DNA of 33,526 nucleotides from Actinomycetes bacterium. Lineage in GTDB: Bacteria; Actinomycetota; Acidimicrobiia; Acidimicrobiales; Palsa-688. Position numbers and translations under genes: made by a program. The stretch lies in the NCBI GenBank assembly GCA_021808785.1, contig JAKBAX010000009.1:1-33526 (forward strand). The letters are read 5' to 3'. The notes beneath the pieces are model-generated. The model did not search any database and had not been told where the DNA came from. It saw only the letters and a program-made list of their open reading frames with translations. Of this stretch, positions 6,864 through 28,800 are shown piece by piece. Numbering within the stretch: position 1 is the first letter of the stretch; each line of letters starts with the position of its first letter.

Positions 6864-9745
6864 CCCCGATCGTCCGAGCCGCGGCCGCGCCCGGCCTCGA
6901 CCTGTCGAACCGAGGCGAGATCGGCGGCCGGGTCGGGTAGGAAAGGGTCGGGGAGGGCGAGCTCGACAGCTGCGACCCGCACCGGAGCGGCGGCGTCGTC
7001 GAAGTCATCGCGGCGGCGGCCCGGTAGCGGGACAGGACCGAGGAGGCTGGCGGGGTCGGTCACCTGGTAGCGGGCCCGGTAGGTGTCGATGGCTTGCGCG
7101 GCGTCGCCCCAGCGGAGCCGGCCGAGCCCGCCCGCCGGCGGCGGCCCCAGTGGGGCCAGGTGCGGGCCGGGATCGGCGAACGCAGCCCGTCGCATCAGCG
7201 CAGAGTGTTCCATCTCGACGTCTCGGAGGGGTCCGGCAATACCAGCTGCGGTGGCTACCTGCTGGGCGTGGCTGCGGCCGAGGGATTCAACGAGGGTACG
7301 GATGGCACCATCTTGTCCTCTCGCCGGAGGCCGGGTGTGCGCCTCGATCTCCGCTCCGTCGTCACCGGCGACGAGGTACAAGTCGTTGCCGGCGCGGCCC
7401 CGGGACATACCCACATAACCGGCTTCCCGGTACAGCTGGTCGGAGCCGAGTAAGAACGCCCGGTCGACCGTCGCCCCCTGCGCCTTGTGCAACGTGAGCG
7501 CATATCCGAGGTCGACGTGACCGGCGACCAGATAGCCGCCGGGGATGTGCACACTGTCGCCGCCGGCGGTGCGGACCTCGATCGAGGTGGAGGCAAGGTC
7601 GATGGCCGTGACCGTCGCCCGGGTGCCGTTGACCAGCCCGAACCGCCGGTCGTTGCGGAGCGCGACGATCTCGTCGCCGACAGCGAACACCCTGCCGGCT
7701 GCCTGTAACCCGACCGGGCCGAGCCGGCCGGTCTCGGCCTGCACGGCACGGGCCAGGCGATTCAGGCCGTCGACGTCGGCGCGGCGCAGCGCGTACATGC
7801 CCACCTCGGCGCCGTCCTCGCGTGCCGCCCACCAGTCGGCGACCAGCGCCTGGCGGGCATCGGCGGCGCTGTCGGCCATCACCAGCCGGCCGTGGTCCCG
7901 GTAGACCGCCACCGCCCTGGCCGACTGGCCGGCCCGTAGCCGGTCGAGCGCGTCGCGTTCCCACGCGTCGACCTGCCGGCGGTTGTCCCGTAGCTCGGGT
8001 GCGTCCAGCCGTTCGGCCACGGCCCGCAGGACGCCGCCGGCTTCGATCTCGGGGAGCTGCGCCGGGTCGCCGACCAACACCACCTGGGTCCCGTCCCTTT
8101 CCGCGACCTTCAGTAGCCGGTCGAGGGTCCGGGTGCCCGCCATTCCCGCCTCGTCCACTACCACCACACCCCCGCGGGGCAGCCCGCCGCCGGCGTCGAA
8201 GGGCCGCTCGGCGTCGAGAAGCAGCCGGGCGAGGGTGGTGGAGGGGATCCCGGCACCGGCCTGCAATTCGGCCGCCGCCCGTGCTGAGGGAGCCGCGCCG
8301 ATCACCCGCAACCCGGCTGTCTGCCAGCCGGACCGGCAGGCGTCGAGCGCGAACGTCTTCCCGGTCCCAGCTCGCCCGACCACCACCGCAACCCCGTCGC
8401 CGTCGCCGAGCAGCCGCTCGATCGCCGCGGCCTGCTCGTCGCTGAGCGACGGCAGATCAGCCAGCACCTTCTGTTGTAGGGCGGCGGGGACCAGTCCTGC
8501 GCCCGACGCTCTACGCCGCTCCACGCCGGCGAGGACCCGACGCTCGGCGGCCACCAGGTCCACCGTCGTGTACCTCGACTCGCCCGCACCCGCCGGCCGG
8601 TCGGCACCGGAGCCAGTGGCGGTGGGGCCGACGACCAAGATCCGTTCGTCGGCCAGGACCCGGTCGGCCGTCTGCTCCACCGCGGTCCGGGCGGCGCCGT
8701 CACCGGCCGCCTCGGCGACCGCCCGGATGACATCGCGCCGGGCGAACGTCGTGCGCTGCGCGGTCAGGCCGGCCGGTCCGGCGAGCCGCTCGACGAGCCC
8801 GTCCACGTCGAGAGGTTCGGGGGTGCGGCCGGGGCCGGTGAGCGCGGCGACCTTCTCTGGGCTCAGCCCGAGATCGTCGGCTCGGAGCCGCCACGACTCG
8901 ACCAGCACTCCGGCGTCGACATCGTGGTCCTTGGCGGTCCGGCTGCGGTAGGCGGCGACCTGCGCAGCCTTCGCCCCGCTCTCACCGACCGCGGCCAGAT
9001 GCTCCTCGATGTCGCGGCGGCGAGTCGAGAACTCCCGCAGCACACCCCGGGCGATCCCTGCCGGTTCGGCCATCCCTGCCCGTACTGGGCTCCAGCCCAA
9101 CCCGAGACTGCGGGTCAGGCGGTCACGCAACGCCGCCTGGTAGACGAACCCGGCGGTGCGGGCGTGCGCGAACAGGCTGCGGCTGTCGAGCGCCGACCAC
9201 CGCCCATCCGCCCCCTGCACCAAGTTGGCGGCCAGCACATGGGTGTGGAGCTGGGGGTCCCCGGCGCGGGAGGTGCGATGCACGAACCCGGCTGCCACAA
9301 GACCTCCGGTGCCGATCCGCTCCAGCCCATCGTGGCCGCGACGAGCGAAGACCGCATTGTCGTCCAGGTAGCCGAGCGCGTCTGCGACCGCCCTAGCGTG
9401 GGCGGCGTCGATCGCCCTTCCCACCGCCGGGTCGCCGAGCGCCCCGATCAGGCTCACCCCCTTCGGAGCGGAGAACGTCAGGAACATCCCCGGCCGGCGT
9501 CGCCGTCCCGCCAGCGAGGACACCAGGTCGGCGCCGGTCGAAGGGTCGACCCCGGCCAGGACCGCCCGCAAGGCTCGGCCCTCGACCCGGCCGGCCAGAC
9601 CCAGGGCCGGGGACCCGCCACCGACCCACACGCCGGGGCTGTCACCGTCCTGGCTGTAGTACTCGTCGTGACGGACCGGCCCCGCCGACCCGACCGCCAA
9701 GTAGTAGTCCTCGTCCCCGGCGGAGAGCATCCCGACCGACAGCAT
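6851..9745 (-). CDS. MobF-family relaxase (TrwC relaxase domain plus RecD/TraI-type helicase)
   Basis: TrwC motifs MLSVGMLSAGDEDYYL..., LTFSAPKGVSL, DPQLHTHVLAANL (HxH); helicase Walker A VVVGRAGTGKTFALDACR, VVVDEAGMAGTRTLDRLL, C-terminal VDLGYALTLHKAQGATVDRAFLL. Confidence 0.95.
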   Translation of the reverse strand: MLSVGMLSAGDEDYYLAVGSAGPVRHDEYYSQDGDSPGVWVGGGSPALGLAGRVEGRALRAVLAGVDPSTGADLVSSLAGRRRRPGMFLTFSAPKGVSLIGALGDPAVGRAIDAAHARAVADALGYLDDNAVFARRGHDGLERIGTGGLVAAGFVHRTSRAGDPQLHTHVLAANLVQGADGRWSALDSRSLFAHARTAGFVYQAALRDRLTRSLGLGWSPVRAGMAEPAGIARGVLREFSTRRRDIEEHLAAVGESGAKAAQVAAYRSRTAKDHDVDAGVLVESWRLRADDLGLSPEKVAALTGPGRTPEPLDVDGLVERLAGPAGLTAQRTTFARRDVIRAVAEAAGDGAARTAVEQTADRVLADERILVVGPTATGSGADRPAGAGESRYTTVDLVAAERRVLAGVERRRASGAGLVPAALQQKVLADLPSLSDEQAAAIERLLGDGDGVAVVVGRAGTGKTFALDACRSGWQTAGLRVIGAAPSARAAAELQAGAGIPSTTLARLLLDAERPFDAGGGLPRGGVVVVDEAGMAGTRTLDRLLKVAERDGTQVVLVGDPAQLPEIEAGGVLRAVAERLDAPELRDNRRQVDAWERDALDRLRAGQSARAVAVYRDHGRLVMADSAADARQALVADWWAAREDGAEVGMYALRRADVDGLNRLARAVQAETGRLGPVGLQAAGRVFAVGDEIVALRNDRRFGLVNGTRATVTAIDLASTSIEVRTAGGDSVHIPGGYLVAGHVDLGYALTLHKAQGATVDRAFLLGSDQLYREAGYVGMSRGRAGNDLYLVAGDDGAEIEAHTRPPARGQDGAIRTLVESLGRSHAQQVATAAGIAGPLRDVEMEHSALMRRAAFADPGPHLAPLGPPPAGGLGRLRWGDAAQAIDTYRARYQVTDPASLLGPVPLPGRRRDDFDDAAAPVRVAAVELALPDPFLPDPAADLASVRQVEAGRGRGSDDRGWSR

Positions 9746-9760
9746 CGTCCGGGCCGGCCT

Positions 9761-10531
9761 TCAGCTGGCGGCCGGTAGCCCGGCCAGCCCGCCCTCGAGG
9801 TGGGCCCGCAACGCCCGCTCCGCCCGCCGACACTGCTTCCTGATTGCCGCCGGCTGGCGTCCCGTACGAGCGGCGACCACCACGGCCGGCGTCCCGAACG
9901 CCCGGACCTCCCACACCACCCCGGCCGACGCCGGGCTGACCACACCATCAGCGACGGCGCAGCGGAACAGGTCGCGGGCCTCCGCCCCCCAATGCCCGCT
10001 GTCGGCTGCCGGGATCGGCACCCCTCCCCCCCTCCCGCCGCCGCCGCCGTCGTCGTCCGGGAACGGGTCCGTCGGCCTCCGCGACGCCGCCCGCAGCTGG
10101 GCCCGGACCGCGTCACGAGCGGCGCCGGCGATCACCCGGTCCGGCCACTCCACGCTGCTGCCGGCGAGGACGACGATGCGTTCCCATCCTGCCGCCGCCA
10201 CCGCCTGGTCGATCTCGGCCGGCTCCTGGCGCCACACCCGGCACAGGCGGCCGGCGACCGACCGCAACGCCGGGACCACCGCGGCCAGTGCAGCGTCAGC
10301 CGCCAGTGGCTCTGCTCCGGCCAGCCTCAGCAGCGCCGTCAGCGCCGCCCGCGAAGCCACCGCGTCGTTTCGATCGGCGCAGCGGGTGACGGCGTCGACC
10401 GCCCGGGTGATACCAGCCAATGCCGGTTCCTCGGCCGCCCAGGCTGCCGCCGATGCGGCGGTCCGGGGAGAGGACAGCCGGCGGGCCAAGTCGGCCGAGA
10501 GGCGGGTGAAGAGGTCTGCGGTGCTGGTCAT
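9761..10531 (-). CDS. Sigma-70 region 4-like / HTH protein of the mobilization operon
   Basis: C-terminal helices AVADGVVSPASAGVVWEVRAFGTPAVVVAARTGRQPAAIRKQCRRAERALRAHL resemble sigma region 4; co-directional with the relaxase. Confidence 0.65.
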   Translation of the reverse strand: MTSTADLFTRLSADLARRLSSPRTAASAAAWAAEEPALAGITRAVDAVTRCADRNDAVASRAALTALLRLAGAEPLAADAALAAVVPALRSVAGRLCRVWRQEPAEIDQAVAAAGWERIVVLAGSSVEWPDRVIAGAARDAVRAQLRAASRRPTDPFPDDDGGGGGRGGGVPIPAADSGHWGAEARDLFRCAVADGVVSPASAGVVWEVRAFGTPAVVVAARTGRQPAAIRKQCRRAERALRAHLEGGLAGLPAAS

Positions 10532-12928: not shown

Positions 12929-15900
12929 ATGACGAGCGTTGATGACGCGGCGTTGGTCGGACAGGAGGCTCAAGACCGGTCGCTGCGCTACTTGGACTTC
13001 CTCGAGGCGTACCACCTGAATCGGTTCCCGCCTGTCCGGGACATCGGCGACTACCGAGACGTGCAAGTGACTGAGAGCAACGTACCGAAGGATTCTCTGG
13101 GCGTGGCGTTCATCCCGGGCGGTGAGGCGTGGCTGATCGTCGACTTGGTGGACCTGCCACCAGTTCCTGCCATGCCGCCTGAGTGGGAAGACTGGGTGTC
13201 CGAACCGGTCACTGCCGGGTCTCGGCCCGTGGTGCGCCATCCCGACCCGGTAGCGGCGGCGCTGATCGCGCTCATGGAGGAGCCACCGGACGGTGAGCTG
13301 TCGCAGCTGGACGAGCTGGGCGCCGACGCGCTTGCGGCGCGGGGCCTACACGGCGTCGCCGCTGGGTCGGTCGTCGCTGCGGCTGTCGCGGCACGAACGC
13401 AAGTGGAAGCGGCCGAGCAGGGTCTCGGGCCTTGGTTGGCGCAGGTGTGGCAGCCGTGGTCCGCACGGTGGTTGAACATCGACACCAGCCGAGCCTTCTA
13501 CAAGGCGTTGTTCGACTTGCGAGTCCGCCTGGAACGTGAGCGGGAGACGTTCGAGCTCGTGTGGGCCTTCGGGCGCACCCGCTGGATGGCCCAGTTGGAT
13601 GGTGGCCCGGTCCGGGTCGATCATCCACTGTTGACGGTAGCAGTGGAGGTCGAACTGGAGCGGGCGAGCGGACGGCTACGGGTCCTGCCGGAGGGTGCCT
13701 TGAGCGTCGAGACGAGCTGGACGGTCGGATTGGCGCTGTCGGACCGGGCGGGTCTGGCCGACGCACGATCGAGCGTTCAGCAGATCGAGATCGACCCCTG
13801 GGGTGTCGCCAGGAAGGAGATGGTGGCCCAGCTGTTGCGGTCGCTCGACCAGGACGGGCGACTGCTGAGACTCGATGAGCGACCGACTTTCGGGTCCGAA
13901 GCGGTCGCGGACCCGGAAGGATGGGTGCTGCTCGTCCGTCGCCGCCGCCCGAAGATTCAGGGGTTCATCGACGCGCAACGTGCGCTGTACCGCGACGGCG
14001 TTGCCGTGCCCGCCCCGTTTGCAGCGCTGGTCATCGACCAGCCGTCACTGCTGGACGACCCCAGCGGCGGGGACCTGGTCGAAGGTGATCGGGACGGTGA
14101 GAGTGCGGAGACGGCTTGGGCGGCCGATGCGGAGGAGCGGTACCTTCTGCCGCTGCCAGCGAACGAGGAACAACTCGAGATCGTGTCGTTGGCTCGCAGT
14201 AGAGCGGGGGTGACGGCACAAGGCCCACCGGGTACCGGCAAGAGTCACACGATCGCGAACCTGGTGTCCCATTACTTGGCTCACGGCAAGCGGGTTCTCG
14301 TGACAGCCGAGAAGGAACAGGCCCTGCGAGTACTGATCGAAAAGATCCCTGAGGACATTCGCGGCCTGTGCGTGCCGGTCCTTGGGTCCGATGCGACCGG
14401 GCGCGCCGAGATTCAACGCACTGTCTCCGAGATCGCCGCAGGATCCCAGCGGCGTCCCGACCGGGAAGCCATCAGGCGGCTTGCCGACGAACTGGACCGT
14501 ATCGACAGCCAGTACTCGGTGACCACGAACTTGCTTCGGGTCAAGCGAACCGCCGAGACCGGCGCCGCCCCCCACCGCCCGCCTAGTGTCCCAATAGAGG
14601 AGTGGACACCTTCGGCAGCAGCTAGGTGGGTGGCCGACCACCATCATCTCGTTGGTATCACCGACAACCTCGATCGGCACGCACCGCCGCCGCTCAGCGG
14701 GGCGGAGTTCCTCTCCGCGGAGGCGCTATGCCGGCGGATCGGCAGCGACGACGGTCACGCCGCTCTCCAAGAACTCCCGAACCCCTCGGCCCTACCCACC
14801 GGTGGCCAGCTGGCGTCCCTCGCAGGCGAAGCCGAGCGTCTCCGAATGCTCCTTGCCGACATCGAGGAGCGAATCGTCGGCTGGGAACGGGTGGACGGGC
14901 TCGCTGCCGCAACCACCGAGGCGCTCACCGTCGACCTCGAGCGATGGATCGTCTGGCATACGAAGGCGGCGGGAAGCTGGGTTGGGGAGGTACTCAAAGC
15001 AGCGCGCGACAAGGTGTCGGCTGCCGTTTGGCGTGACTTCATCGACGCTGCAACCGCAGAGCGCGACGCCGTACTGGCCATCAACAGTGAACTGGCGGCG
15101 GATGCCATCACAGTGACTCCTCCTTCCGACGGATCTCTGGCTGGGCCAGACTTGATTGCCGGATTGAACGAGGCTCGGGCACGGTTCGCTGCCGGAAAAT
15201 CCGTCGGCACCTTCCAGCGGGCCGCCCGGCGAGCGCTCGAACACTGCAGCACCAACGGCCACACCCCGTCGACGATCGCCGACCTAGACCTTATCGGCGC
15301 CGAACTCGCGCGCCGCGACTTCCGCCAACGACTCCTCAACCGTTGGGTGAACACTGCGGTCCCGGTCGGTGCGCCGCTGTTGCCCAGCGAACGTAGCGTA
15401 GAAGACGCCATTGGTGAATACCTCGCCGAAGTCACGACCGCCCTGGACTGGTCCGATCGGGTCTGGCCGCAACTGGCCGAACGCCTGTCGCTCGCCGGCG
15501 TCAGGGCACCAGCCGACCCCGATGGCGCCGAGCTCGGCGGGCTAGAGCGCACTTGCCGATCGCTGGGCGAACGGGCCCGTCTGGTTGACATCGAAGGCAA
15601 CATCGGGCGTATCGCCGCCCATCTCGAGGCTGGGGCCGCCGCCCGGGGGGCTTCCCCCTTGTGGGCCGACCTGCGCGGGGCTCTGGTCGACCGCGCCTAC
15701 ACCCGGTTCGACGAGTTGCGCACCGAAGCGCAGCGTTTGGCCGACCTCGCCCCGGAAGCCGCCGGCCGCCGGGATCTGCTCTGCCGGCTCCGCGTCGCAG
15801 CCCCGCTTCTCACGGACGGCGTCGAAGCAACCGGGACACCGATCGACCCGGCTGCCTTCGAACAGTGTTGGATGTGGCGGCAACTGTGGCTGTGGCTCGC

Positions 15901-17803
15901 GGACATCGACGAAGGTCCCCAACCGGCCGAGCTCCAGGCCCGGCTGGAGAGACTGGCGAGGGACCGTCGACGTATCGTCACCGACCTGGTCGCAGCCCGC
16001 GCGTGGGCAGCGCTGTCCGACAGCATCGATGACCGGCGTCGCACGGCTCTCAATCGGTTCACCACGGCAAACTCCAAGCTGGGCAAAGGCACCGGCCGCT
16101 ATGCTCCCATGTGGGCGGCCCAGGCGCGCGAGGCCATGGTCGATGCGCAAGACGCGGTGCCGGTGTGGATCATGCCCCTCCACCGGGCACTCGACAGCTT
16201 TCGCCCCGCAGCGGATCCCCCTTTTGATGTGGTGATCGTCGATGAGGCGAGCCAGGTCGGCCTCCTCGAGACGCCGGTCCTCGGGCTCGGACGGCGGGCC
16301 ATCATCGTCGGCGACGACCAGCAGACCAGTCCAGAGATCGTTGGCGTGGACCGCCAAGGCGTATTCGACCTGATCGATGACTTCCTCGGTGCCATCGGCG
16401 ACCGCAAGACTCGATTCAGTCCCGACAACAGCCTCTACGACATCGCCCGGCAACGATTCCCTCAGATTGTGCAACTCCGAGAGCATTTTCGCTGCCTGCC
16501 TCGTATCATCGAGTTCTCCAGCCAGCGCTGGTACGCGGGCAGCATCATTCCGCTCCGGGATCGGCCGCCACGCCCGGGCTGGCAGCCCGTCGGCACCGTC
16601 TACGTTCCCGGCGGTGTCCGCCGCTACAACGACGACACCAACCCCGAAGAAGCGGACGCCATCGTTGATCTCATCGCCCAACTCATAGCGGACCCCGATT
16701 ACGAGGGAATGACCTTCGGCGTCGTGACACTCCTCGGCTCCGGCCAGGCGCGCCTCATATCCGGCAACCTCATCGACCGATTCGGTGCGACCGGCGAGAT
16801 CGAGGATCGCCGCATCCGGGTTGGGGATCCCGCCGACTTTCAAGGCGACGAACGCGACGTTGTGATCCTCAGCACCGTTGTAGCCCACGACGTCGGCGGG
16901 CGCCTCTTCGGGGCCATGACCGGCGCAGCCGCCAATCGCCGGATAAACGTCGCAGCCTCTCGCGCAGCAAACCAGCTGTGGATGGTCCATTCGGTCGGCC
17001 CCGAGGACTTCAACGCAGGCGACCCCCGCCGCTGGCTGCTCGAGTACTGCTCTTCCGCATCAGACGACGACGGAGCCATCAGGGTCGCCGCCGAGCGAAC
17101 CGAGTCGGTCTTCGAGGCGGAGGTCCTGAAGCGGATCGTCGGTCGTGGCTACACCCGAGTCCACGCCCAGTATCCCGTCGGGGGCTACCGCATCGACCTC
17201 GTCGTCGAGGGCCCCGAGAACAGGTTGGCGGTCGAGTGCGACGGGGACTACTGGCACGGGCCCGACGTCTGGGACCGTGACCGGTCCCGCCAGACGGTCC
17301 TCGAGCGAGCCGGCTGGACGTTCGAGCGGATCCGGGGCAGCAGCTTCTACCGAGATCCCGACGCTGCACTCGAACCCCTATGGCAGCGCCTCGCCGAGCT
17401 AGACATACCCACAGGCGACTGGGCAGGCGACCTCCGCCCCTCACCAGCACAGCGACGCTGGCCGGACGACTTCCCAGAACGCCTGGCCGCCATCGCAGAG
17501 GCTGTCGAGCCGACAACGGCCACCGCATTGTCGAGGGATCGACCCGCACCAGTCGCCGCAGCAGAGCCCTGGGCCAGCCTGGCAGACGCCGACTCCACCT
17601 CCCACCTCAACCGCCCGGGCGACGACCAGACCGGCATGTACCGGCTCATAGCCCCGCGCTCCCCCACGCAGGAGCCCAGCACCCGGGAGGTTCGCCAATG
17701 GGCGGGCGACCACGGCTACCAGGTCGGCGAACGCGGCCGGCTACACCCCGAGGTCATCACCGCATGGAACGCTGCGTTCCCAAACCGTCCCTTCGGCCGG
17801 TAG
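12929..17803 (+). CDS. SF1 (AAA_11/AAA_12-type) helicase with C-terminal Vsr/MTES_1575-like nuclease and Lsr2-like terminal domain
   Basis: Walker A GPPGTGKSHTIANL; Walker B VVIVDEASQVGLLE; nuclease motif YRIDLVVEGPENRLAVECDGDYWHG...QTVLERAGWTFERIRGSSFYRDP; C-terminus TREVRQWAGDHGYQVGERGRLHPEVITAWNAAF. ATG 12929 chosen as start. Confidence 0.85.
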   Translation: MTSVDDAALVGQEAQDRSLRYLDFLEAYHLNRFPPVRDIGDYRDVQVTESNVPKDSLGVAFIPGGEAWLIVDLVDLPPVPAMPPEWEDWVSEPVTAGSRPVVRHPDPVAAALIALMEEPPDGELSQLDELGADALAARGLHGVAAGSVVAAAVAARTQVEAAEQGLGPWLAQVWQPWSARWLNIDTSRAFYKALFDLRVRLERERETFELVWAFGRTRWMAQLDGGPVRVDHPLLTVAVEVELERASGRLRVLPEGALSVETSWTVGLALSDRAGLADARSSVQQIEIDPWGVARKEMVAQLLRSLDQDGRLLRLDERPTFGSEAVADPEGWVLLVRRRRPKIQGFIDAQRALYRDGVAVPAPFAALVIDQPSLLDDPSGGDLVEGDRDGESAETAWAADAEERYLLPLPANEEQLEIVSLARSRAGVTAQGPPGTGKSHTIANLVSHYLAHGKRVLVTAEKEQALRVLIEKIPEDIRGLCVPVLGSDATGRAEIQRTVSEIAAGSQRRPDREAIRRLADELDRIDSQYSVTTNLLRVKRTAETGAAPHRPPSVPIEEWTPSAAARWVADHHHLVGITDNLDRHAPPPLSGAEFLSAEALCRRIGSDDGHAALQELPNPSALPTGGQLASLAGEAERLRMLLADIEERIVGWERVDGLAAATTEALTVDLERWIVWHTKAAGSWVGEVLKAARDKVSAAVWRDFIDAATAERDAVLAINSELAADAITVTPPSDGSLAGPDLIAGLNEARARFAAGKSVGTFQRAARRALEHCSTNGHTPSTIADLDLIGAELARRDFRQRLLNRWVNTAVPVGAPLLPSERSVEDAIGEYLAEVTTALDWSDRVWPQLAERLSLAGVRAPADPDGAELGGLERTCRSLGERARLVDIEGNIGRIAAHLEAGAAARGASPLWADLRGALVDRAYTRFDELRTEAQRLADLAPEAAGRRDLLCRLRVAAPLLTDGVEATGTPIDPAAFEQCWMWRQLWLWLADIDEGPQPAELQARLERLARDRRRIVTDLVAARAWAALSDSIDDRRRTALNRFTTANSKLGKGTGRYAPMWAAQAREAMVDAQDAVPVWIMPLHRALDSFRPAADPPFDVVIVDEASQVGLLETPVLGLGRRAIIVGDDQQTSPEIVGVDRQGVFDLIDDFLGAIGDRKTRFSPDNSLYDIARQRFPQIVQLREHFRCLPRIIEFSSQRWYAGSIIPLRDRPPRPGWQPVGTVYVPGGVRRYNDDTNPEEADAIVDLIAQLIADPDYEGMTFGVVTLLGSGQARLISGNLIDRFGATGEIEDRRIRVGDPADFQGDERDVVILSTVVAHDVGGRLFGAMTGAAANRRINVAASRAANQLWMVHSVGPEDFNAGDPRRWLLEYCSSASDDDGAIRVAAERTESVFEAEVLKRIVGRGYTRVHAQYPVGGYRIDLVVEGPENRLAVECDGDYWHGPDVWDRDRSRQTVLERAGWTFERIRGSSFYRDPDAALEPLWQRLAELDIPTGDWAGDLRPSPAQRRWPDDFPERLAAIAEAVEPTTATALSRDRPAPVAAAEPWASLADADSTSHLNRPGDDQTGMYRLIAPRSPTQEPSTREVRQWAGDHGYQVGERGRLHPEVITAWNAAFPNRPFGR

Positions 17804-17905: not shown

Positions 17906-18679
17906 TCAGGCGGGGCGGAGGACGCCTTGGCGGGTGAGGCTTTCGAGATGGGCGGCGATCGTGGCCGGCTCCGGGCCGCCTCGGAGCAGGACCCCGCATT
18001 CGAGGTTGTCGGTCATGGCTCTGCCGGTCAGGTTGGCGCTACCGACGAGGGCGGTGGTGCGGTCGACCACGATCAGCTTGGCGTGGAGTGCGGCGCCGGG
18101 CGGGCGTTGCGAGGCAGGCCACGCCAGGCGGCGGATGTCGAGGCCGGTGTAGGCGTCAGCGGTGGCGGTGTAGTGCGGGTTGTCGACGTTGCGCTCGAGG
18201 ACCACGGTGATGGCCACCGCGCGGGTGACCGCGGCGGCCAGGGCGGCGAGGATGCACTCGTCGTCACGGCTGGCGAAGCTGACCAGCCAGATCTCCTCCC
18301 GGGCGCTGCCGATGAGCTCGGCGATTGTTGGTGCGGTGAGGCGAGCGGTGTCGACGCCGGAGTCGGGCCCGGTCCACACCACGTCGATGCCTCCACGTTG
18401 CCCGTCTCGCCGGCTGGCGGCGGCGGCGCCGGCCACCAACCCCGACACCCAGAGGGCTTCGGGGCGGATTCGACGTTTCCATGCCTGGGTGAGGGCGACA
18501 CAGGCGTCTCGGAGCAGTGGGCTTGGTGCGACAGCACGAAGCTCGGCCAAGCCGGAGGGGCCGGCGGCGGCGGCGCGGCTCAGCCGGTCGAGGTCGAAGG
18601 CCGGGAGGCGCTGGGCGAGGGCGGCGACCAGCTCCTCAATGTGGCTGGCGCCGTCAGTGTCATCAGTGCCGGAGGGCAA
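17906..18679 (-). CDS. drmC: DISARM phospholipase D-like protein DrmC
   Basis: PLD HxK(x4)D motif HAKLIVVDRTTALVGSANLTGRA; TTG start; translationally overlapping drmB. Confidence 0.9.
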   Translation of the reverse strand: MPSGTDDTDGASHIEELVAALAQRLPAFDLDRLSRAAAAGPSGLAELRAVAPSPLLRDACVALTQAWKRRIRPEALWVSGLVAGAAAASRRDGQRGGIDVVWTGPDSGVDTARLTAPTIAELIGSAREEIWLVSFASRDDECILAALAAAVTRAVAITVVLERNVDNPHYTATADAYTGLDIRRLAWPASQRPPGAALHAKLIVVDRTTALVGSANLTGRAMTDNLECGVLLRGGPEPATIAAHLESLTRQGVLRPA

Positions 18680-20510
18680 GGCCGTCCCTGCTCAGGTCGA
18701 CTAGCACAGCGCGGTCCAGCCAGCGGTTGTTGGCCTCGCAAGAGGTCTCGGACGCAAACAGGCAGGCGTGGCAGGCGGCGCCGTGCAGCTGGTCGTAGGG
18801 CTCCTGGGGGACGTGCTCGGCGCAGAGCGGATCCGATGAGCAACGCCCGGCGTCGTTGAACGCCAAGTCGAGCAGCCGTTGGAGGTGGCGGGCGGCGCCC
18901 AGCGCGACGAGGCCGCCGAGGGTGCCTTCGCTGTCGCTGGCGGCGGTGGAGAGGAGGATGCCCGCAGCCCGCCGGCCGGGCTGGCCGAGGTAGAGACGCT
19001 CCCGGATGCTCGCCGAGGAGTAACCGCACTCGAGGGCGATCTGCCGGATCAGCAGGTGGCTGAAGGTGTGCAGCAGGACGTATCTGGGGATCGGAAACGC
19101 TGGGTCGGGTGTCTGATCACGGTTGGCGGCCCAACGCCGGTAGGCGTGGCGGAGCGCGTCGATGCGGGGGTGGTCCTCGACGTCGTGCTCCCAAGCGGCG
19201 AGGCGGTCTTCTCGCAGCTGCAAGAAGACGCCCTCGCCGCGCTGCTCGACAGCCGGCACCCATTCCGGCGGGCCGACGGTGAGCGGCAGGCGGTTGACGG
19301 GGGCCAGCTCACGGCGTTCGGGCGCGACGAGGCGGGTGAAGCCGACCAGGGCCCGGACCTCCCGCAGCCGGCTGACTTGCACCACCTGGTCGAGGAGGTG
19401 ATCGTAGCCAACGGGAGTCGGGGTGGGGACCGCCCGAAAGTCGTCGTCCTGGCGTTCGGTGGTGGGCCGGGCCAGCAGCTCCCATTCGGCGTCGAGGAGC
19501 CCCCCGGTCGGATCAGGGATGCGAGGACCGCCGGCAGCCCGGGTCTTCTCGATGGTAGCCCACACTTCGACCAGGGGATAGGCCCGGAGCGGACGGAGCT
19601 GTTCCATGCTCTCGACCATCACACCGACGACGCTCTGGTCGGACTGGGACGACAGGATGTGCCAGTTCTCCTCCACCACGTCGGTGAGGGAAACCTCCAG
19701 CGGCAGATGGAGGGCGCTGGCGGTGACCGAGAACCACAGGTTCGATGAACCGAGAACCATCAGCTTGGTCGGGGCAGCGCAGTCCTCGAAGCGTTGCAGG
19801 TGGGGATGGCGCCCCCGGCAGCGGGGAAGCTGCTCATGGCCGTCCCGGCCGGCGGCTTCTTGGATGTTGCGGCTCTTCCCGCACTCGGCGCAGCGGATCG
19901 TGACCCTCGGTCCGAGGGTGCTGGCCGAGTCGCTCATGGCCAACTTGGGCGCCGGGCAGGGTGACCCGTGGTGCACGAACTCGACGTAGGGGAAGTCGTC
20001 GAGGTGCCCGGCGGCGCAGGTGACCAGGAACCGCGCGGGAAGGCACGGTCGTTTGCGGGCGTCGCTGGCGTGGCTCTGCTTGTCGCAGTAGGCGTGCACC
20101 CACTTGGCCAGGTCGGGGCGGCGTCCCCAACGGTGGACAAGGGTGAACTGCCCGGGCGGGTCGAGGGGCCCCAAGCGGTAGCACCGGGGGCAGCGCACCC
20201 AGCGAGGGAACGGGCTGACCGGCACCCCCGTGCGGGTCCAAGGCTCGTCGGCGGTCGTCGGATCCCACGGCGCCTTGCGCAGACCCCGCACTTGGTCACC
20301 GAGGACGGCGTGGACTTCCCGGAGCAGCCGGGCCTCGACGACGGTGTCGGCGTGCTCGGGGCTCCAGGCGTGCAGGCCACGGACGATGACGCTCATCGCT
20401 GGCAGGTCGATGACCGCCCCGACCCCGGCGGTGGTCACGAGTCCGCTGGGGCGGGCCGAGCCGATGCGGGTCGGCTCGGAGGGACGGGCGTCGGAGGTCG
20501 TCGCGCTCAT
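18663..20510 (-). CDS. drmB: DISARM DrmB (DUF1998 domain)
   Basis: Cys clusters RCPRCYRLGPL, CAAGHLDDFPYVEFVHHG, IRCAECGKS, CHACLFASETSCEANNRWLDR; ATG at 20510 overlaps the drmA stop as ATGA. Confidence 0.9.
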   Translation of the reverse strand: MSATTSDARPSEPTRIGSARPSGLVTTAGVGAVIDLPAMSVIVRGLHAWSPEHADTVVEARLLREVHAVLGDQVRGLRKAPWDPTTADEPWTRTGVPVSPFPRWVRCPRCYRLGPLDPPGQFTLVHRWGRRPDLAKWVHAYCDKQSHASDARKRPCLPARFLVTCAAGHLDDFPYVEFVHHGSPCPAPKLAMSDSASTLGPRVTIRCAECGKSRNIQEAAGRDGHEQLPRCRGRHPHLQRFEDCAAPTKLMVLGSSNLWFSVTASALHLPLEVSLTDVVEENWHILSSQSDQSVVGVMVESMEQLRPLRAYPLVEVWATIEKTRAAGGPRIPDPTGGLLDAEWELLARPTTERQDDDFRAVPTPTPVGYDHLLDQVVQVSRLREVRALVGFTRLVAPERRELAPVNRLPLTVGPPEWVPAVEQRGEGVFLQLREDRLAAWEHDVEDHPRIDALRHAYRRWAANRDQTPDPAFPIPRYVLLHTFSHLLIRQIALECGYSSASIRERLYLGQPGRRAAGILLSTAASDSEGTLGGLVALGAARHLQRLLDLAFNDAGRCSSDPLCAEHVPQEPYDQLHGAACHACLFASETSCEANNRWLDRAVLVDLSRDGLALRH

Positions 20511-23500
20511 GGGGCTGTCCGCTCGTGGTCGGTGTAGCGCCACGGCGGTGGGTCGTCAGTGCTCGGGTCACTGCGCTGGAGCTGCAGGAAGATGTCCGGC
20601 TCCACTTCCCGGAGGCTGCGGGGGACGGACCATCCGTCCCAGTCGCCGTCCTCGGGCCGGCGGATGAGCCCGGTGACGTCCTTGCCCTGCTCGTAGCCGA
20701 GTATCCCGGTCGAGAGCCGCCGACGCCGGTCGCCCCACTCGTCGATGCGATGCTGTAGCCGCCGTCCGACATCGTCGGCCTGCGCACGATCGTGGGTGAC
20801 CCGCAGGGCCCGGGCCGTGATGTCGGCCGCCAGCGAGCGGGCAGCCTCGTCGTCGAGGGGCAACGTGGTGGCCGCCGGGTTGGCCAGGGCGTCGAGGCGG
20901 GAGTGACGGAGGGCGGTGACCAGGATGCCGGTGAGGCCCCGGTCGAGGGCCCGATCGCTGAAGGGTGTGGTCGTGAGACCTTCTACCATGGCGCCGAAGG
21001 TGGCGTGGTAGTGCCCGAAGGTCTCGTAGTGGGCCAGATCCCGGGGCCGGGCCCACTGGTAGATCGTGAGGACCAGCCCCGGGCGGCGGGGATCGCGCCC
21101 CACCCGGGAGGTGGCCTGAATGTACTCGGCGGTGTTCTTCGGTTGGCCGGTGACAGCCATCAACCCCAGGCGGGGAACGTCCACGCCGACCTGGAGCATG
21201 CTGGTGGCGAGGAGAACGTCGAGTGGTTGGCGGACGCCGTCGGGTCGCCGGGCGGTGAGGGGCTGACCGGCCCGGGCCTCGGCTCGGAGGGCATCGAGGG
21301 CCGCAGAGGTGTCGAAGGTCGGGTCGAACGGCGTCTCGAGGTCGGCGAGGGTTGCCGAGATCCGGTCGCTCGGCATGCGGCTGGTCAGCTCCGACACGTT
21401 GGGCCGGCGCCGGCGAGTCCGGACCTGCCGGCTGGAAAGACGGTCGGCGATGTCGTCGTCGACCAGCCGGCGCATGCTGGCCAGATCACGGGTTGAGGTG
21501 AAGTAGTCGGCGACGGTCATGTACGGGTCAGCGGCTGCGCCGTGGCGGTCGAAAAGGGCTTGAGCGTGCTCGAGGACGGCGGCCACGACCCGTATCTCGA
21601 TGGCGGTCATCCGCTCACCAGAGGCCAGTATCCCCCGGTACCGGCGGCCCGGTGTAGCCGGGCTGGGGGCGACGGGAGCCGAGAAGAAGGTCGTCCCGGC
21701 ATCGAGGATCTGCGGGGGGAACACGGCCAGGTCACGGGCAAAGACCTGCTCCACCTGATCCGACGCCCGCCGGACGGTGGCGGTGGAGGCCACCAGCACC
21801 GGACGGATCTGACCGGCAGGCCCCGGCCGGCTGCACAGGCGGTCGATCACGGTTTCATAGAGGCCGACGAGCGAGCCGAGGGCGTCGCTGATGAGGTGCA
21901 GCTCGTCCTGGATGATCAGATCGGGTGGACGGAGCGGCAGGACCGGCTCCGCAGAGGTGGCCGGTAGGCCGCCGGCAGCGGGGTGGCGCCCCCGGCACAC
22001 CTGGTCGAAGTCGGGGTTGCGCCAGCCGTGGCGAGGGCAACGCTCGGCGACCAACCCGAACAGGGTGGCGGTGGCGGCCTTCCAGGGCAGCTGGGCCAGC
22101 TTGTCGACGGTCGCGATGACCAGCGCTGGTGTCAGCCGGTAGAGGTCCTCGTCGACGGTGAGGACCGGGATGCCTTCCCCGGGGGTGCGCCGCTCGGTGA
22201 ACAGGCACCGGCCTTCGGGGTCGGAGCAGTAGACGAGAACCCGGCGGCGAGCGCGATCAGTGCGCAGGTCGGCGTAGCTCAGTCGGGCGCCGCACCACGG
22301 GCAGGCCACCAGCTGAAGCACGCCACCAGCGCCGCCCCGCCCGCCGCGCTCGTCCTCCACCTGCCGCTGGGCTTCCTCGAAGGTGTTGGGGGTGACCGAC
22401 GAGCCGACCCACAGCCCGACCCGGAAGGGGGTGTCTCCCCAACGGGTGTCTCCGCTGGCGATGCGCTCGCGTCGCAGCGCCTCGCAGGCGCAGGTGAGCG
22501 CTGCCGCCCGGGAGAACTGCTGGGCGGTGAGAAGCCGGAGCGTGTACCGCATGAGGACGGCCACCCCGTCGGTGCCGTCCCGGGCGTCGGGCCCGTCACC
22601 GACGACGCCTTGGAGGCGGCGGATGGCGAAGGTGTAGGCGGTGAGCCCCAGGTAGCTCTCGGTCTTGCCGCCGCCGGTCGGGAAGAACAGCAGCTGGGCC
22701 TGACCGTCGAGGTCGCTGCGGTGGGCGTCGGGATGGGCCGGGTCGGTGAGGCCCGGCAGGCAGAGCAGGACAAAGGCCAGCTGGAATGGGCGCCAGCTGC
22801 GCTGAGCGGGGACGTCGAGGTCGTCGAGGAGGCTGTCGGCGCTGCGGTCAGGCTGCGCGAGGCGGGCTCGGACCATCTCCGAACGGACCCGCTGCAGAGC
22901 CATGGCCTGGTTGGCGAAGCGGAACGCCTCCCGGGCGGTCGGGTTGTCGTGGAGAAGGTCGACGGCTCGGTCTAGGCGATCGGCGATGTCCCGGCCCTTC
23001 GCCAGCATCCTGGCAGCCGCAGCCCCGTACCGGGCGATCTCGGGGTCGGTGGCGGCTCGCTCGGCTTGACGCTCCAGCCACGCCCGGTAGCCGGTGACTA
23101 GTGGGCGGACAGCCCGGATCAGGTCGTCGCGGGCTAGGTCCTGACTGCCGAGGCGGGCCATGTCGAGGACCAGGCCCGGCATCTCCTCGGCGCCGGCGGG
23201 GACGGTGAGGGAGACTTCGGCGGCGGGGAAACTGGTGGTGGTGAGCTTCCAAGCCCGCAGCTCGCCGTCTCGGACCTCGACGTCGACGGCGCACTGGCGG
23301 CCGTGGGCGTACTGGCGATGGTGGCGGTAGAGGAGGGCCAGCTCCAGACGTTCGTCGTCGTGGTCGGCGGGCGGCTCGCTGAGCTCCGGATCGTTGTTGG
23401 CGACGAACACGGCGGCGTCGCCGCCGGCGGCGGTGACCTCGATGCGGACCTGATACAGCCGGGAGAGGTCGGGACTTCCGGCGGCGGAAGGCTGAGCGTT

Positions 23501-24163
23501 GACCAGGGCCAGGTCGACCAGCCGGCAGCCGGGACGGTGCCGGACGGTGACGCGAAGCTGCACACCTTCGGTCTCGGGGTCGGGGATGAGCACCTGGTCG
23601 CCGGACGCGTCGAGGTCGACGACCACCGCGGCTCGCACCGGCACCCGGCGCCACACCGTGACGGGCCGGCCCTGCTCGGTCACATGCTGCTCGGAGGGGG
23701 CTCGTCCGTAGCGGCCCCAGGTGGTCGTGACCCGGACGGCGGCGACCTCGGCAGGCACCTCGAAGCTGAGACCGAGCGAGGACGCCGCCATGGTGCCGGA
23801 GCGGACGGTGGCCTGGCTCTCGGGTGCCTCCGGGTCGTCGTCGGCGCCGACGATGTCCCGGTCGACGAGATCGGCGTCGGAGGCTTCCGGCTCGGGCGGC
23901 GCTTGCCCGGCGGACGCCTCCCCGCCGGATGCTTGCCCGGCCGGGGACAGCCCGGCTCCTGCTTGCCCGGCCGGGGACTGCCCAGCCGGGGACTGGCAGG
24001 GAACGAGACGGCCGAGGATGTAGCGCTCGGCGGGCGGGACGCCCGGGGGCAGCTCCTCCTCGGGGCCGTCCCAGGGGCCGAGCAGATCCCGCTCGAGCAA
24101 GCCCTCCAGCTCGGCCCGCACCCGGTAGGACCGGTGCTCGCCGGTCGCTGCCGCGCGGGTCAA
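20507..24163 (-). CDS. drmA: DISARM helicase DrmA
   Basis: Walker A LLFFPTGGGKTESYLGL; DLIIQDELHLISDALGSLVGLYE; STATVRRASDQ; QATSRVGRDPRRPGLVLTIY. ORF extends to 24277 but TTG 24163 is more consistent with the upstream gene ending at 24180. Confidence 0.9.
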   Translation of the reverse strand: MTRAAATGEHRSYRVRAELEGLLERDLLGPWDGPEEELPPGVPPAERYILGRLVPCQSPAGQSPAGQAGAGLSPAGQASGGEASAGQAPPEPEASDADLVDRDIVGADDDPEAPESQATVRSGTMAASSLGLSFEVPAEVAAVRVTTTWGRYGRAPSEQHVTEQGRPVTVWRRVPVRAAVVVDLDASGDQVLIPDPETEGVQLRVTVRHRPGCRLVDLALVNAQPSAAGSPDLSRLYQVRIEVTAAGGDAAVFVANNDPELSEPPADHDDERLELALLYRHHRQYAHGRQCAVDVEVRDGELRAWKLTTTSFPAAEVSLTVPAGAEEMPGLVLDMARLGSQDLARDDLIRAVRPLVTGYRAWLERQAERAATDPEIARYGAAAARMLAKGRDIADRLDRAVDLLHDNPTAREAFRFANQAMALQRVRSEMVRARLAQPDRSADSLLDDLDVPAQRSWRPFQLAFVLLCLPGLTDPAHPDAHRSDLDGQAQLLFFPTGGGKTESYLGLTAYTFAIRRLQGVVGDGPDARDGTDGVAVLMRYTLRLLTAQQFSRAAALTCACEALRRERIASGDTRWGDTPFRVGLWVGSSVTPNTFEEAQRQVEDERGGRGGAGGVLQLVACPWCGARLSYADLRTDRARRRVLVYCSDPEGRCLFTERRTPGEGIPVLTVDEDLYRLTPALVIATVDKLAQLPWKAATATLFGLVAERCPRHGWRNPDFDQVCRGRHPAAGGLPATSAEPVLPLRPPDLIIQDELHLISDALGSLVGLYETVIDRLCSRPGPAGQIRPVLVASTATVRRASDQVEQVFARDLAVFPPQILDAGTTFFSAPVAPSPATPGRRYRGILASGERMTAIEIRVVAAVLEHAQALFDRHGAAADPYMTVADYFTSTRDLASMRRLVDDDIADRLSSRQVRTRRRRPNVSELTSRMPSDRISATLADLETPFDPTFDTSAALDALRAEARAGQPLTARRPDGVRQPLDVLLATSMLQVGVDVPRLGLMAVTGQPKNTAEYIQATSRVGRDPRRPGLVLTIYQWARPRDLAHYETFGHYHATFGAMVEGLTTTPFSDRALDRGLTGILVTALRHSRLDALANPAATTLPLDDEAARSLAADITARALRVTHDRAQADDVGRRLQHRIDEWGDRRRRLSTGILGYEQGKDVTGLIRRPEDGDWDGWSVPRSLREVEPDIFLQLQRSDPSTDDPPPWRYTDHERTAP

Positions 24164-24179
24164 CGCCAGGCCGTCATAG

Positions 24180-24956
24180 TCAGGCGAAGTCCGGAGTGTC
24201 GAACGGCTCGTTGTCGAACGGCCAGGGGAACACCACATCGCAGAGCAGCCGGAAGTGGCTGGGGCCGTGACGGTCACCGACGTGTCGGACGGTCACCTCG
24301 ACCCGAGAGAAGTCACCGCCGGAGGCTTCGGACGAGCGGTGGAGGGCCGGGCAGAGATACATGGGGATCCAACCGAGCGGCACGCCGGTGCGAGGCTGCA
24401 CGAGCAGGGCGAGACGGTCGACGTCGTTGGTCGGCTCGGGTCTGACCTCGAGACGGTCGCCGGGGCGAAGGGCATCGACAGCGATCTGGGCCGCCTCGCC
24501 TCGGTGGCGCACCCCTCGTACGAGGATGCGGCCCGACGCCAGTCGGCGGACCCGGTCGAGGGCGGGCGGCGCGAAGACCTCCAGCGTGTCGGTGGCCCTC
24601 GGACCTCCACTCGAGGCCAGCACCTCGAACGGGTCGGCGTCGGGCTCCAAGCCGACAGACGCAGCCCAGTCGGCGTAGTCGCTCCGAGCGACGGGGACCA
24701 TGCGGTTCTCGAAGAACGGGAAGAGCCGCTCGGAGCGGTAGGCGACGTCGAACGCAGGAAAACTGGTCAAGGGTCGCCCCATCACGGCAGCCGCCCGGGT
24801 GAGATACCGGAACTCGTAGGTGCCGTCGACCTCGATGGTGAGGCGTCCGACCGGCGTGATGGTCCGGTCGGGTTGCTGCCAGGCGACGTAGAGGACCCGA
24901 GTGTCGGCCCGGGCGCGGACGATCGTGCCGGTACCGCGGCTTGCGTCATGCGCCAT
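24180..24956 (-). CDS. HIRAN-like domain protein
   Basis: ILVRGVRHRGEAAQIAVDALRPGDRLEVRPEPTNDVDRLALLVQPRTGVPLGWIPMYLCPAL resembles HIRAN; ATG within an 11-nt overlap with the upstream kinase gene. Confidence 0.75.
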   Translation of the reverse strand: MAHDASRGTGTIVRARADTRVLYVAWQQPDRTITPVGRLTIEVDGTYEFRYLTRAAAVMGRPLTSFPAFDVAYRSERLFPFFENRMVPVARSDYADWAASVGLEPDADPFEVLASSGGPRATDTLEVFAPPALDRVRRLASGRILVRGVRHRGEAAQIAVDALRPGDRLEVRPEPTNDVDRLALLVQPRTGVPLGWIPMYLCPALHRSSEASGGDFSRVEVTVRHVGDRHGPSHFRLLCDVVFPWPFDNEPFDTPDFA

Positions 24957-25845
24957 CGAGCAACCTCCTTCTGTTCGTCGTCATCACCGCACGGGCGAAC
25001 CTACGGCTCACCTGTGACATTCTGGCTTCGGGCGGAGCGTCGAGCAGCGATGATTGTTGTTCGGGGCTGAGCCGGGCCAGACGGTCGATCCAGTGGCGAG
25101 CGGGGGCTCCTGCGACGTGGACGGCCTGCGAAGCCAGATCGACGAGGCGAGGCTGGTTCTCCATGGGCCGGCACACGCCCTTGCCGGCCCACTGTTCGAC
25201 CTGGCCGCCGGCGAGGCGTCTGTGCTTGTCGTCGTCGTGGAGGGAGAACCCCAGGCTGCTCCCATGGTCGAAGGTGGGGGCGAGGATCGGCGCGGCGGCG
25301 CCTCGTTGGTCGTCGAGGACGCCCCAGTTCTGGTGGTGACGGTCCTGGTTGGCGATCCAGGCGTCGAGGACCAGGTATCCGGCAAAGACGGACGCGGCGG
25401 TCTGAGGTGGGGCGTCGGCGCAGGCGGGTCCTTCGACGCCGGACGCCTCGAGGGCGTCGAGGATCCGTTCGAGCCGGTAGCCGGGCACGGTGCCGCCCTT
25501 CTGGGCCGGGTAGGTGCTGTCGAGGGCGTAGATCAGCTCGTTGCCGTGGACCAGGCGCCGTCCGTCGCTGATGTCCCGGGACAGGGCGCCTGGCCGGCCG
25601 TCGCGGGAGGCGGGGAGGACCAGCGCAGCGGGAAGGCCGATGGCCGTAGCGGCGGCAGAGGCGATCACCTCCGCCCAGTCCTCGCCGCGAGGGAAGTCAC
25701 CTCGCCGCCCGTCGTGCTGGATACCGGCGGGCTTCCAAAGCCATTGGTCGCCGGCAGGGTCGACCAGCCACAGCTTTCCGGGCTCACCCATCGGCTCGAC
25801 GTCGAGTGCGGCCCACCCTCCGACATCGACCTCCTCGACCGTCAC
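24946..25845 (-). CDS. HipA-like Ser/Thr kinase
   Basis: LWLVDPAGDQWLWKPAG (ATP-binding Lys), LVLDAWIANQDRHHQNWGVL (catalytic loop), ILAPTFDHGSSLGF (Mg-binding); no HipB-type HTH partner adjacent. Confidence 0.8.
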   Translation of the reverse strand: MTVEEVDVGGWAALDVEPMGEPGKLWLVDPAGDQWLWKPAGIQHDGRRGDFPRGEDWAEVIASAAATAIGLPAALVLPASRDGRPGALSRDISDGRRLVHGNELIYALDSTYPAQKGGTVPGYRLERILDALEASGVEGPACADAPPQTAASVFAGYLVLDAWIANQDRHHQNWGVLDDQRGAAAPILAPTFDHGSSLGFSLHDDDKHRRLAGGQVEQWAGKGVCRPMENQPRLVDLASQAVHVAGAPARHWIDRLARLSPEQQSSLLDAPPEARMSQVSRRFARAVMTTNRRRLLDGA

Positions 25846-25878: not shown

Positions 25879-28800
25879 CTACGCCGAGGCGTGACCGGCC
25901 TCCAGGGCGTGGCGGCGGTGGTTCTCGGCGAGGAGCCGGTCGAGGAGCTCGAAGCGGACCCGGGGGCTGACGGTCCAGCGAACGCCGATCTTGGTGGGGT
26001 GGTGGCCGATCTCGGTGTCGAGGTCATTCCAGCCGTAGGAGTCGAACACGGCCCGGTCGATGGCGGCGTGAATGTCGCGCAGGTTGGCGACCTCGGGGTC
26101 ACGGTCGGCGGGGTCGTGGACGTGGTTGTAGGTGGTCGTGAGACCCCAGCTCCGGGAGAGCATCAGCGCCCGGCGGTCGGTGTCCAGCCGCTGGCCCAGT
26201 GCCTCCAACGCGTCGGTGACCTCGGGGCCAGGAAAGGTAGCGAAGACGTCCGAAGGCGCGTACCGGATGTCGGTCCGCATGGTGGACGTGTAGCGGATGG
26301 CCCAGATGGCATGGGCGTCGGAACTGAGGATCGCCAGGTGGGCGAAGTCGTCGAAGGCGAATACGCCGCACACGTGGGCGAACACCGGGCCGGTCGGGAC
26401 CCGCACCGGAAGGAGGGTGCTGCCGACCAAGGAGATGGCGAGCACGTGGTCGAGCTTGGCGATCGTCTCGTACAACTCGGGACGCGCTCGTGTGTACTGC
26501 CACCACTGCTCTCGGGTCCTACGCTCCTTGATCCTGTCCCGCTCGGGCCTCACCGAGCGAGTAACGATGGCGAGGGCTTCGGGGAAAGCGGCGCAGCGGT
26601 CAAGTGGCCAGTCCCGGAAGTTGATGATCCAGCGGCTGGCTGAGGTGTCGGGCCGTTGGTTGAGGTCCTTGCCGATGACGTAGGGCTGGACGACGTCGGC
26701 GTAGCGGGCGTCGCGGTCGATCATGGCGGTGGCCTGGTCGGGGGTGAGGGTGAAGCCGAGACCGAGGACGTTCGTTCCCTGGAAGGCAAGATCGTCGTTG
26801 GCCCGCAGCCGGAACGGGCGGCCGATGACGGCGCCGACGGGTTGGAGGTCGGGGCCGATGTGGGGGACGTCCTCGCCGTCGAGCCAGCAGCTGGCCCCGG
26901 CGGCGAGGGGGGCTCGGGTGGCCCACAGGTCGACGATCTGGAGGTTGGCGCTGCGGCTGGGCCACTTGTGGCCGCCACGGCCGCGGCGGATAGTCAGACC
27001 GCCGGCGGTGGCCTGAAGGAGACCGACCTCCAGGGTGTCACCCTCGACGAGGGTGTTGACGGCGAGGTAGCCGAGCTGCCCGCGCTTGGATAAGAGCCGG
27101 TCGGCGCGGAGGAGGAAGCTGGCGACGAGGTCGGCGCTACCCTTTGCTCGCCTGGCGTCCCAGGCTTGGAGCCAGTTGCGGTAGTCGGTGCCGAGGCTGC
27201 CGGTGAGCTTCTGGCCGCCGAGGAAGGGCGGGTTGCCGATGATGGCGTCGAAGCCGGGGTCGGGGGTGTCGGCGAAGACTTCGGGGAAGGCGAGGGGCCA
27301 GTGCAGCGGCTGGCGGGGGGCGGTGCCCGCGGGGCGACCGCGTTGGAGGTCGGTGTCGGCTTCTCGGCGGAGGTCGGCGAGGCCGTCGTGTTCGACGGCG
27401 TTGTCGACGCGGTCGGCGAGGAGGGTGAATGCCACGGCGCGGTCCCGGGCGGGGCGGCCGGCGGCGACGAGGCCGGTAGCGGTGACGGCGTCGGCAACGG
27501 CTAGGAGATCGGCGGTGGCGGCGTCGGCTTCGGCCAGGAGGCTGGCCTTGTGCTCGACGTCGCGGGCGGTGACGACCGGTTGCGCGGTGATGCGTCGGCG
27601 GATGTCGGCGGCGGCCGCCAGGAGCGGCCGGACGCGGGGGGTGGTGGCGTGAAGCTGGTGGTGGCCGGACGGGTCGACGTGGAGGTATTCGAGCTGCTCG
27701 ACGTTGACCAGGCCGAGGAGGCTGTCGCCGCAGCGGAGGCGGTCGTCGAGGAACCCGAACGGCCGTTGGCGGTCCATGGTGATCAGCCACAGGCTGAGCT
27801 TGGCCATCTCCACGGCGAGGGTGTTGACATCGACGCCGTAGAGGCAGTGCTCGGTGATGAGGCGACGGGCGTCGAGGAGGACCGGTTCGACTTCGGCGTC
27901 TGCGTCTCTGTGTGGCCCGGCGTGGGATCGTCCGGCGCGGGCCAGGACTGCTCGCTGAGCGTCGGTGCGGCCCTCGGCGTCCCAGGCCTCGACCAAGCGG
28001 TCGGCGAGATACCGGCAGGCGGCGACGAGAAACGCGCCCGAGCCCATGGCGACGTCGGCGACGCACAGGTCGAGCAGCTCGCTGGAGGGCCGGAGGCGCC
28101 ATGCTGCCCGGTCGGCGGTTTCGAGCGGGCCGGGCCGGTAGGCGAGCGGTTCGAGGGCGTTGCCGGCAATGTCCTCGGCCAGTGAACGGGGGGTGTAGTG
28201 GGTGCCGGTGGCGGCCCGGCGGTGGCTGGCGGCCAGGTACCGGCCGCCGGCCGGGACGACAGCGGGACGCCCGTCGGGCCGGGGACGCAGCGCCCCGTAG
28301 AGGGGAGTGAGCAGGTCAGTGAGGCTGCTGTCACCGTCGCAGGCGGCGACGAGCCGGCCGTGGTCGGTGGCGTCCAGGGCGGCGTCGAGGGTGCGGGCGG
28401 CGCGCGCCGCGCTCCAACCCGTCCGGTCGGTCAGCCAGGGCACCTGCTCGGCGTTGGTCAGGGCGTCGATGGCCTCGGACCATTCGGCGACGCTGACCTC
28501 GCCGGGAGTCTTGGTCTTCTTGCCGTTGGCCGGTCGGGCCAGGAGGACCATCGGGGTCTCCGCGGTGCGGACCTCGAGCTCGAGGAGGCCTTCGTAGACG
28601 TAGCCGATCTGTTCGACGTCGAGGGCTCGGAAGGTGAGCCTGCGGCGCTGGCCGGCGATGGTGACGAACTGGACGGCGCGCAGCATGCGCAGCACGGTCC
28701 GGTCGTCGACCCGGGGCGGGGCGGCGGTAGGCGGGTCGCCGGGCCGGCGGCCTTCGAGCCACGGGTAGCGGTCGGGGTCGAACAAGCCGCCGCCGTAGGC

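Follow-up and report, generated by a model that had tools for sequence, protein, structure and literature searches.

A helicase-nuclease ending in an Lsr2 DNA-binding domain, encoded beside a DISARM operon on an integrative mobile element

The window, i.e., the whole stretch of DNA analysed here, comprises 33,526 bases and represents the entire contig C65; the right end of the element that it carries lies beyond the contig. Its left part (44..10531, minus strand) harbours mobile-element genes assigned by Pfam: an integrase (44-1324), an HTH gene (1343-1819), a T4 coupling protein (T4CP, 5475-6863), and a TrwC relaxase (6851-9745). At its end, the integrase gene overlaps a tRNA-Gly(CCC) at 33-104. 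This tRNA stretch recurs as a perfect 74-base copy close to the beginning of contig C152 and, at 94% and together with downstream sequence, in contig C514; both copies may be attachment-site partners or sister elements. Upstream of the gene of interest lie a DUF433/HTH_66 antitoxin-like gene (11552-12274, plus strand) and a toxin-like frame (12237-12665, plus strand). The latter contains an early in-frame stop (LPDLFVDRSLG*RRVPEILR) and is probably a broken or misassembled partner.

The right part is occupied by a defence operon on the minus strand. PADLOC identified drmC, a PLD nuclease (17906..18679), drmB (18663..20543, also matched by Pfam MZB), the helicase drmA (20507..24277, E=3e-264), the methyltransferase drmMI (25879..29958, 1586 bits), and the SNF2-type helicase drmD (29972..33283, 1216 bits), i.e., all five genes of a class 1 DISARM system. 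A HipA-like candidate defence pair is nested between drmA and drmMI (24180..25845, minus strand, PADLOC), composed of PDC-M03B (24180-24956), which shows weak HIRAN and Couple_hipA matches, and PDC-M03A (24946-25845). Relaxase, coupling protein, an integrase at a tRNA-Gly and DISARM together identify the window as part of an integrative mobile element carrying defence genes.

Between both parts, and convergent to the complete DISARM operon, lies an SF1 helicase-nuclease gene with an Lsr2 tail (12929..17803, plus strand), delimited by its open reading frame, homologue alignments and motif positions. The frame (12773-17803, plus strand) comprises 1676 codons and opens at GTG 12773. Since homologue alignments begin at about residue 66, translation probably starts at ATG 12929, residue 53 of this frame. 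By Pfam and motif positions, the first RecA-like domain (AAA_11, residues 464-555, 14162..14437) includes the Walker A motif GPPGTGKS (residues 484-491, 14222-14245), and the second half of the helicase (16232..16987) consists of a Walker B-type DEAS box (residues 1154-1161) and the second RecA-like domain (AAA_12, residues 1230-1405) with its INVAASRA motif (residues 1391-1398). An MTES_1575 (PF18741) Vsr-type nuclease domain follows (residues 1447-1540, 17111..17392, Pfam 109.9 bits), whose acidic residues E1448, D1475, E1488, and D1490 are conserved in two alignments with relatives. Walker A, DEAS box, INVAASRA motif and nuclease acidic residues are all intact, and the Pfam matches to AAA_11, AAA_12 and MTES_1575 agree with an earlier note on this DNA, which had described a helicase fused to a nuclease.

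A structure model of residues 1440-1676, covering nuclease, linker and tail, shows a confident nuclease, some 47 residues with pLDDT <50, and a confident two-helix tail. The closest PDB fold to the nuclease is the catalytic domain of the homing endonuclease I-Bth0305I (TM 0.83 by target length). The low-confidence stretch corresponds to a predicted disordered linker at residues ~1581-1627 (17513..17653, plus strand).

The tail itself is an Lsr2_DNA-bd domain at residues 1635-1668 (17675..17776, plus strand), assigned by Pfam PF23359, phmmer, the structure model and Foldseek. The Pfam match scores 38.9 bits (E=5.5e-10) against a curated cut-off of 26.9, and in a whole-genome profile search the tail is the top Lsr2_DNA-bd site with 46.3 bits. 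Its RGR motif occupies residues 1654-1656 (17732-17740) and is followed by a PNRPF ending, the protein terminating at residue 1676. In a phmmer search against the PDB, the Lsr2 C-domain chains 2kng, 6qkp, and 6qkq rank first (E ~0.0014-0.0019). Modelled alone, the tail reaches a mean pLDDT of 91.9, with the RGR located between two helices, and superimposes on 2kng with 0.8 A rmsd over 32 columns. Foldseek likewise places the same three Lsr2 C-domains at the top of its PDB matches. For a query of 47 residues, weak E-values are to be expected (0.2-0.5 here); since they exceed 0.1, the identity of the tail is argued from hit ranking and sequence evidence together. The earlier note had placed an Lsr2 C-terminal domain at the protein end. 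Pfam score, the predicted Lsr2 fold with its best PDB matches, and the RGR bear this out, and the position was also right: the tail sequence which it quoted forms the in-frame end of the ORF, from residue 1636 (about nucleotide 17678) onwards. A PADLOC profile for a type II methyltransferase, PDLC03328, also matches the Lsr2 tail.

Given its identity as an Lsr2 C-domain by sequence, predicted fold and RGR, the tail likely prefers the AT-rich minor groove. Lsr2 inserts its RGR loop into the minor groove (PMC6936261) and prefers 8-mers of 87.5-100% AT with little sequence specificity (PMC6212790). The protein shares with the nucleoid-associated protein Lsr2 the C-terminal DNA-binding domain, the RGR motif and the predicted fold. 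In contrast to Lsr2, it carries the DNA-binding domain once, joined to an enzyme, and lacks a dimerisation domain: PF11774 has no Pfam match anywhere in the protein.

Among known defence families, the Hhe/MTES_1575 proteins come close. Their architecture comprises HEPN or transglutaminase, SF1 helicase, Vsr REase and two wHTH domains (PMC3710099). An SF1 helicase followed by an MTES_1575 nuclease is common to both, and many members have a small C-terminal module. However, a HEPN domain gave no Pfam match in our protein at E up to 1, and the Lsr2 domain takes the place of the DUF3320-type winged helices. Lacking HEPN, the helicase-nuclease is not classed as Hhe. The PADLOC Hhe profile fits best in the C-terminal region, over helicase and nuclease. 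The best whole-protein match is PDC-S37 (198.9 bits in two stretches), a candidate defence protein of unknown function; this match is partial, the best stretch covering only residues 1128-1543 of the protein and 916-1341 of the 1550 profile positions. None of the DISARM profiles of PADLOC matches the protein. Hence it is neither an Lsr2 silencer nor a DISARM component nor an Hhe, but a defence-type helicase-nuclease in which an Lsr2 adaptor replaces the usual winged helices.

Genome contigs, genomes at order, class and phylum level, and plasmids supplied the homologues of the helicase-nuclease core. Their distribution is sparse, with 9 out of 299 genomes of the order. The Lsr2 tail occurs on four of 43 cores, namely our query, L149, L082 (identical in sequence to L008) and L006. 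Elsewhere the nuclease is followed by nothing, by DUF3320-type winged helices, a GreA/B C-domain, a topoisomerase zinc ribbon, or one of several unnamed modules. The winged helices are found in L079, L014, L005 and others; among those scanned only L079 has a Pfam match to DUF3320, a weak one, and the others were grouped by eye. The topoisomerase (Top1) zinc ribbon is the C-terminal module of L090. GreA/GreB C-domains end planctomycete and other relatives (L025:6107-6757; L034, by eye) and possibly act as adaptors to transcription complexes. In the Streptomyces and Tsukamurella plasmid relatives no Lsr2 tail was found. On the Streptomyces plasmids, a conserved hypothetical gene of ~270-280 codons directly follows the helicase-nuclease (L142:10149-10964, L143:7492-8334) and looks like a partner. 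The earlier note had made its reading depend on a tail conserved among homologues. This expectation holds for the four tailed cores out of 43 and fails for the others, which mostly end in an alternative tail or none.

The distribution of the tail does not follow the relatedness of the cores. The nearest cores, L078 (68% identical) and L145 (67%), have no tail, which indicates that it is not needed for basic activity. Loss by frameshift was considered for L078 and rejected, as the three frames downstream of its core contain no Lsr2 relic. The three other Lsr2-tailed cores are remote, at approximately 45-48% identity to the query core. The tails are more alike: that of the query is 61.5% identical to the L149 tail (cores 47.8%) and 56.4% identical to the L082 tail (cores 44.5%), a comparison which rests on 39 residues. 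In a tree of the 43 cores, the four tailed ones fall into two distant clades, and at least three gains or losses are forced. A single clade is rejected with p-AU 6.9e-38, and with it one ancestral fusion with plain descent. A PxRP ending is shared by all four helicase-nuclease Lsr2 tails and by none of the 70 other Lsr2 tails collected. RGR and the remaining Lsr2 signature are retained in three of the four, the L006 tail having lost RGR and scoring under the Pfam cut-off.

The simplest reading of this pattern, suggested by the sequence comparison, is that one helicase-nuclease-specific Lsr2 module may have moved between core lineages. Alternatively, the Lsr2 tail may be ancient and have been lost repeatedly. 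That most relatives have a different tail or none speaks for exchange rather than a chance match. A phage origin of the fusion was rejected: only two weak matches to phage records were obtained, both to the helicase/nuclease part, and a search of IMG/VR revealed only short nuclease-domain matches.

The search for further fusions of helicases or nucleases to an Lsr2 domain, proposed along with the original observation, was productive beyond the three remote helicase-nucleases. ERCC4-type nucleases lacking PF11774 end in an Lsr2 DNA-binding domain in L002 (478-1620), L069, L074, L095, L098, L100, and L104; this family is scattered across order and class, with one member in the host genome. SF2 (ResIII-type) helicases of ~870-890 codons end in the same domain in L126, L127, and L128, and the dimerisation domain is absent from the L126 and L128 proteins. 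These fusions (L002, L069, L126, L128 and others) resemble the query in joining an enzyme to a C-terminal Lsr2 domain without the dimerisation domain, but their catalytic domains are unrelated and their tails lack the PxRP ending. In L070, a small ORF of ~126 codons encodes three tandem Lsr2 DNA-binding domains. A literature search found no paper naming Lsr2 together with ERCC4, and searching for Lsr2-domain fusions by phrase yielded a single report, on Ku-Lsr2 C-domain fusions of the cluster J mycobacteriophages Omega and Corndog (PMC8612146). There, too, a DNA-processing protein has at its C terminus just the DNA-binding C-terminal part of Lsr2, RGR included; unlike our protein, the partner is the end-joining protein Ku, the fusion is phage-encoded, and the role of the Lsr2 part is a putative one. 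That DNA enzymes employ the Lsr2 domain as a handle for DNA binding is thus a recurrent theme, for which the Ku-Lsr2 report is the only one found in the literature.

The host itself appears to lack an Lsr2 silencer. No PF11774 dimerisation domain was found in its genome (90% complete) or in either of the two congeners searched, the three genomes being 90-96% complete. An lsr2 gene could be hidden in the missing 10% of the host genome, but the absence from all three genomes makes this unlikely. Only two sites in the host exceed the PF23359 cut-off, the helicase-nuclease tail and the end of an ERCC4 nuclease; both carriers are enzymes, not silencers. These observations bear on the proposal of the earlier note that the enzyme might be aimed at Lsr2-coated DNA, whether regulated by it or competing with host Lsr2 for silenced regions. 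Lsr2-like proteins with a dimerisation domain do occur elsewhere in the family, in other genera, which would leave room for such a target. Yet PF11774 is missing from the host and both congeners, and the tail, itself without this domain, contacts DNA and not Lsr2. For this host the idea was therefore rejected and is already largely refuted; we regard it as highly improbable.

We favour, by a modest preference, a single-chain defence-type helicase-nuclease whose Lsr2 domain serves as a flexible, monovalent DNA anchor and steers the enzyme preferentially to lower-GC DNA. By homology, the RGR loop would enter the minor groove of AT-rich DNA, and the long linker, disordered in the model, would let helicase and nuclease work near the anchor. 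For xenogeneic silencers, multivalent binding matters (PMC6212790), so a lone Lsr2 C-domain should bind weakly, and the tail could do no more than bias the search. Base composition may provide the discrimination. In a 69-kb sample of the genome (70.8% GC), from which both GC content and 8-mer density were taken, there are 36 AT-rich 8-mers (at least 7/8 A/T), i.e., 0.52 per kb; in random DNA, 8.5 per kb are expected at 60% GC and 35 at 50% GC. Since such sites are rare in the host, a single anchor would concentrate the enzyme on lower-GC phage or plasmid DNA with no need for a modification system. To cut, the enzyme would still depend on a DNA end, gap or fork as the substrate of its helicase. 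Many actinophages are GC-rich, which would blunt discrimination by GC content. Relative to its length, the element has even fewer AT-rich 8-mers than the genome sample, namely 5 in 33.5 kb. The Lsr2 tail that it encodes would thus find few sites there, and coding bias could explain the rarity.

A possible but rather doubtful alternative holds that the tail is a generic grip which raises affinity or processivity on any DNA, its AT preference having no biological weight. The flexible linker would suit such a grip, as would the nature of the alternative tails, mostly small nucleic-acid-binding modules like the DUF3320-type winged helices and the Top1 zinc ribbon, and the fact that one of the four tails dispenses with RGR. 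Against it, the other three tails keep RGR along with the Lsr2 signature, and this motif is specific for the AT minor groove in Lsr2 (PMC6936261, PMC6212790).

The neighbourhood raises the question of how the anchored enzyme relates to DISARM. Its gene and drmC share the element and end only 103 bp apart, and the operon already houses the PDC-M03 pair according to PADLOC, so that the helicase-nuclease might be a DISARM accessory, a DISARM-dependent effector rather than an independent system. We consider this decidedly unlikely: the gene runs convergently to drmC on the other strand; the defining class 1 genes are complete without it; and no DISARM operon was detected near the relatives scanned, with only a partial IIG/DrmMI-like match near L149. 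A literature search on the combination of Hhe and DISARM found nothing. The helicase-nuclease would probably act alongside the DISARM operon, not within DISARM.

Phage defence by the helicase-nuclease is plausible, favoured by the DISARM neighbour, the relaxase/integrase element and the PADLOC similarity to PDC-S37 and Hhe. The metabolic genes neighbouring two of the four tailed genes, L006 and L082/L008, count against such a role. They fit instead with an enzyme for repair or maintenance of the mobile element, as do the adjoining relaxase/RecD and integrase genes and the presence of Lsr2 tails on Ku and ERCC4 nucleases, which are repair-type proteins. We nevertheless judge this reading unlikely in view of the similarity to Hhe and PDC-S37, the sparse distribution within the order, and the defence-type neighbours at the query, L149, and L146.

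If the anchored, defence-type enzyme is the correct reading, the tail would be an aiming part that can be exchanged while the chassis stays the same; exchange is suggested by the comparison of relatives, and aiming would follow from the domain's expected preference. A further-reaching version, to which we give little credence, sees in the chassis a restriction machine that takes its target from the C-terminal adaptor, swapped between lineages like immune receptors. The Lsr2 adaptor would then read base composition and tell self from non-self by GC content alone, a Top1-type zinc ribbon would address single-stranded DNA, and a GreA/B domain would address RNA polymerase or transcription complexes.

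The earlier note had missed the DISARM neighbour, the tailless close relatives and the alternative tails. Xenogeneic silencers read foreign DNA by its AT content and only silence it; joining such a reader to a helicase-nuclease would turn recognition into destruction. How helicase-nuclease defence proteins find foreign DNA is mostly obscure, and direct tests are rarely possible. Here, relatives with different tails on one core constitute natural chimeras for a direct test of the aiming part. The fusion is real and apparently exchanged between lineages, and thus provides a directly testable case of aiming by base composition.
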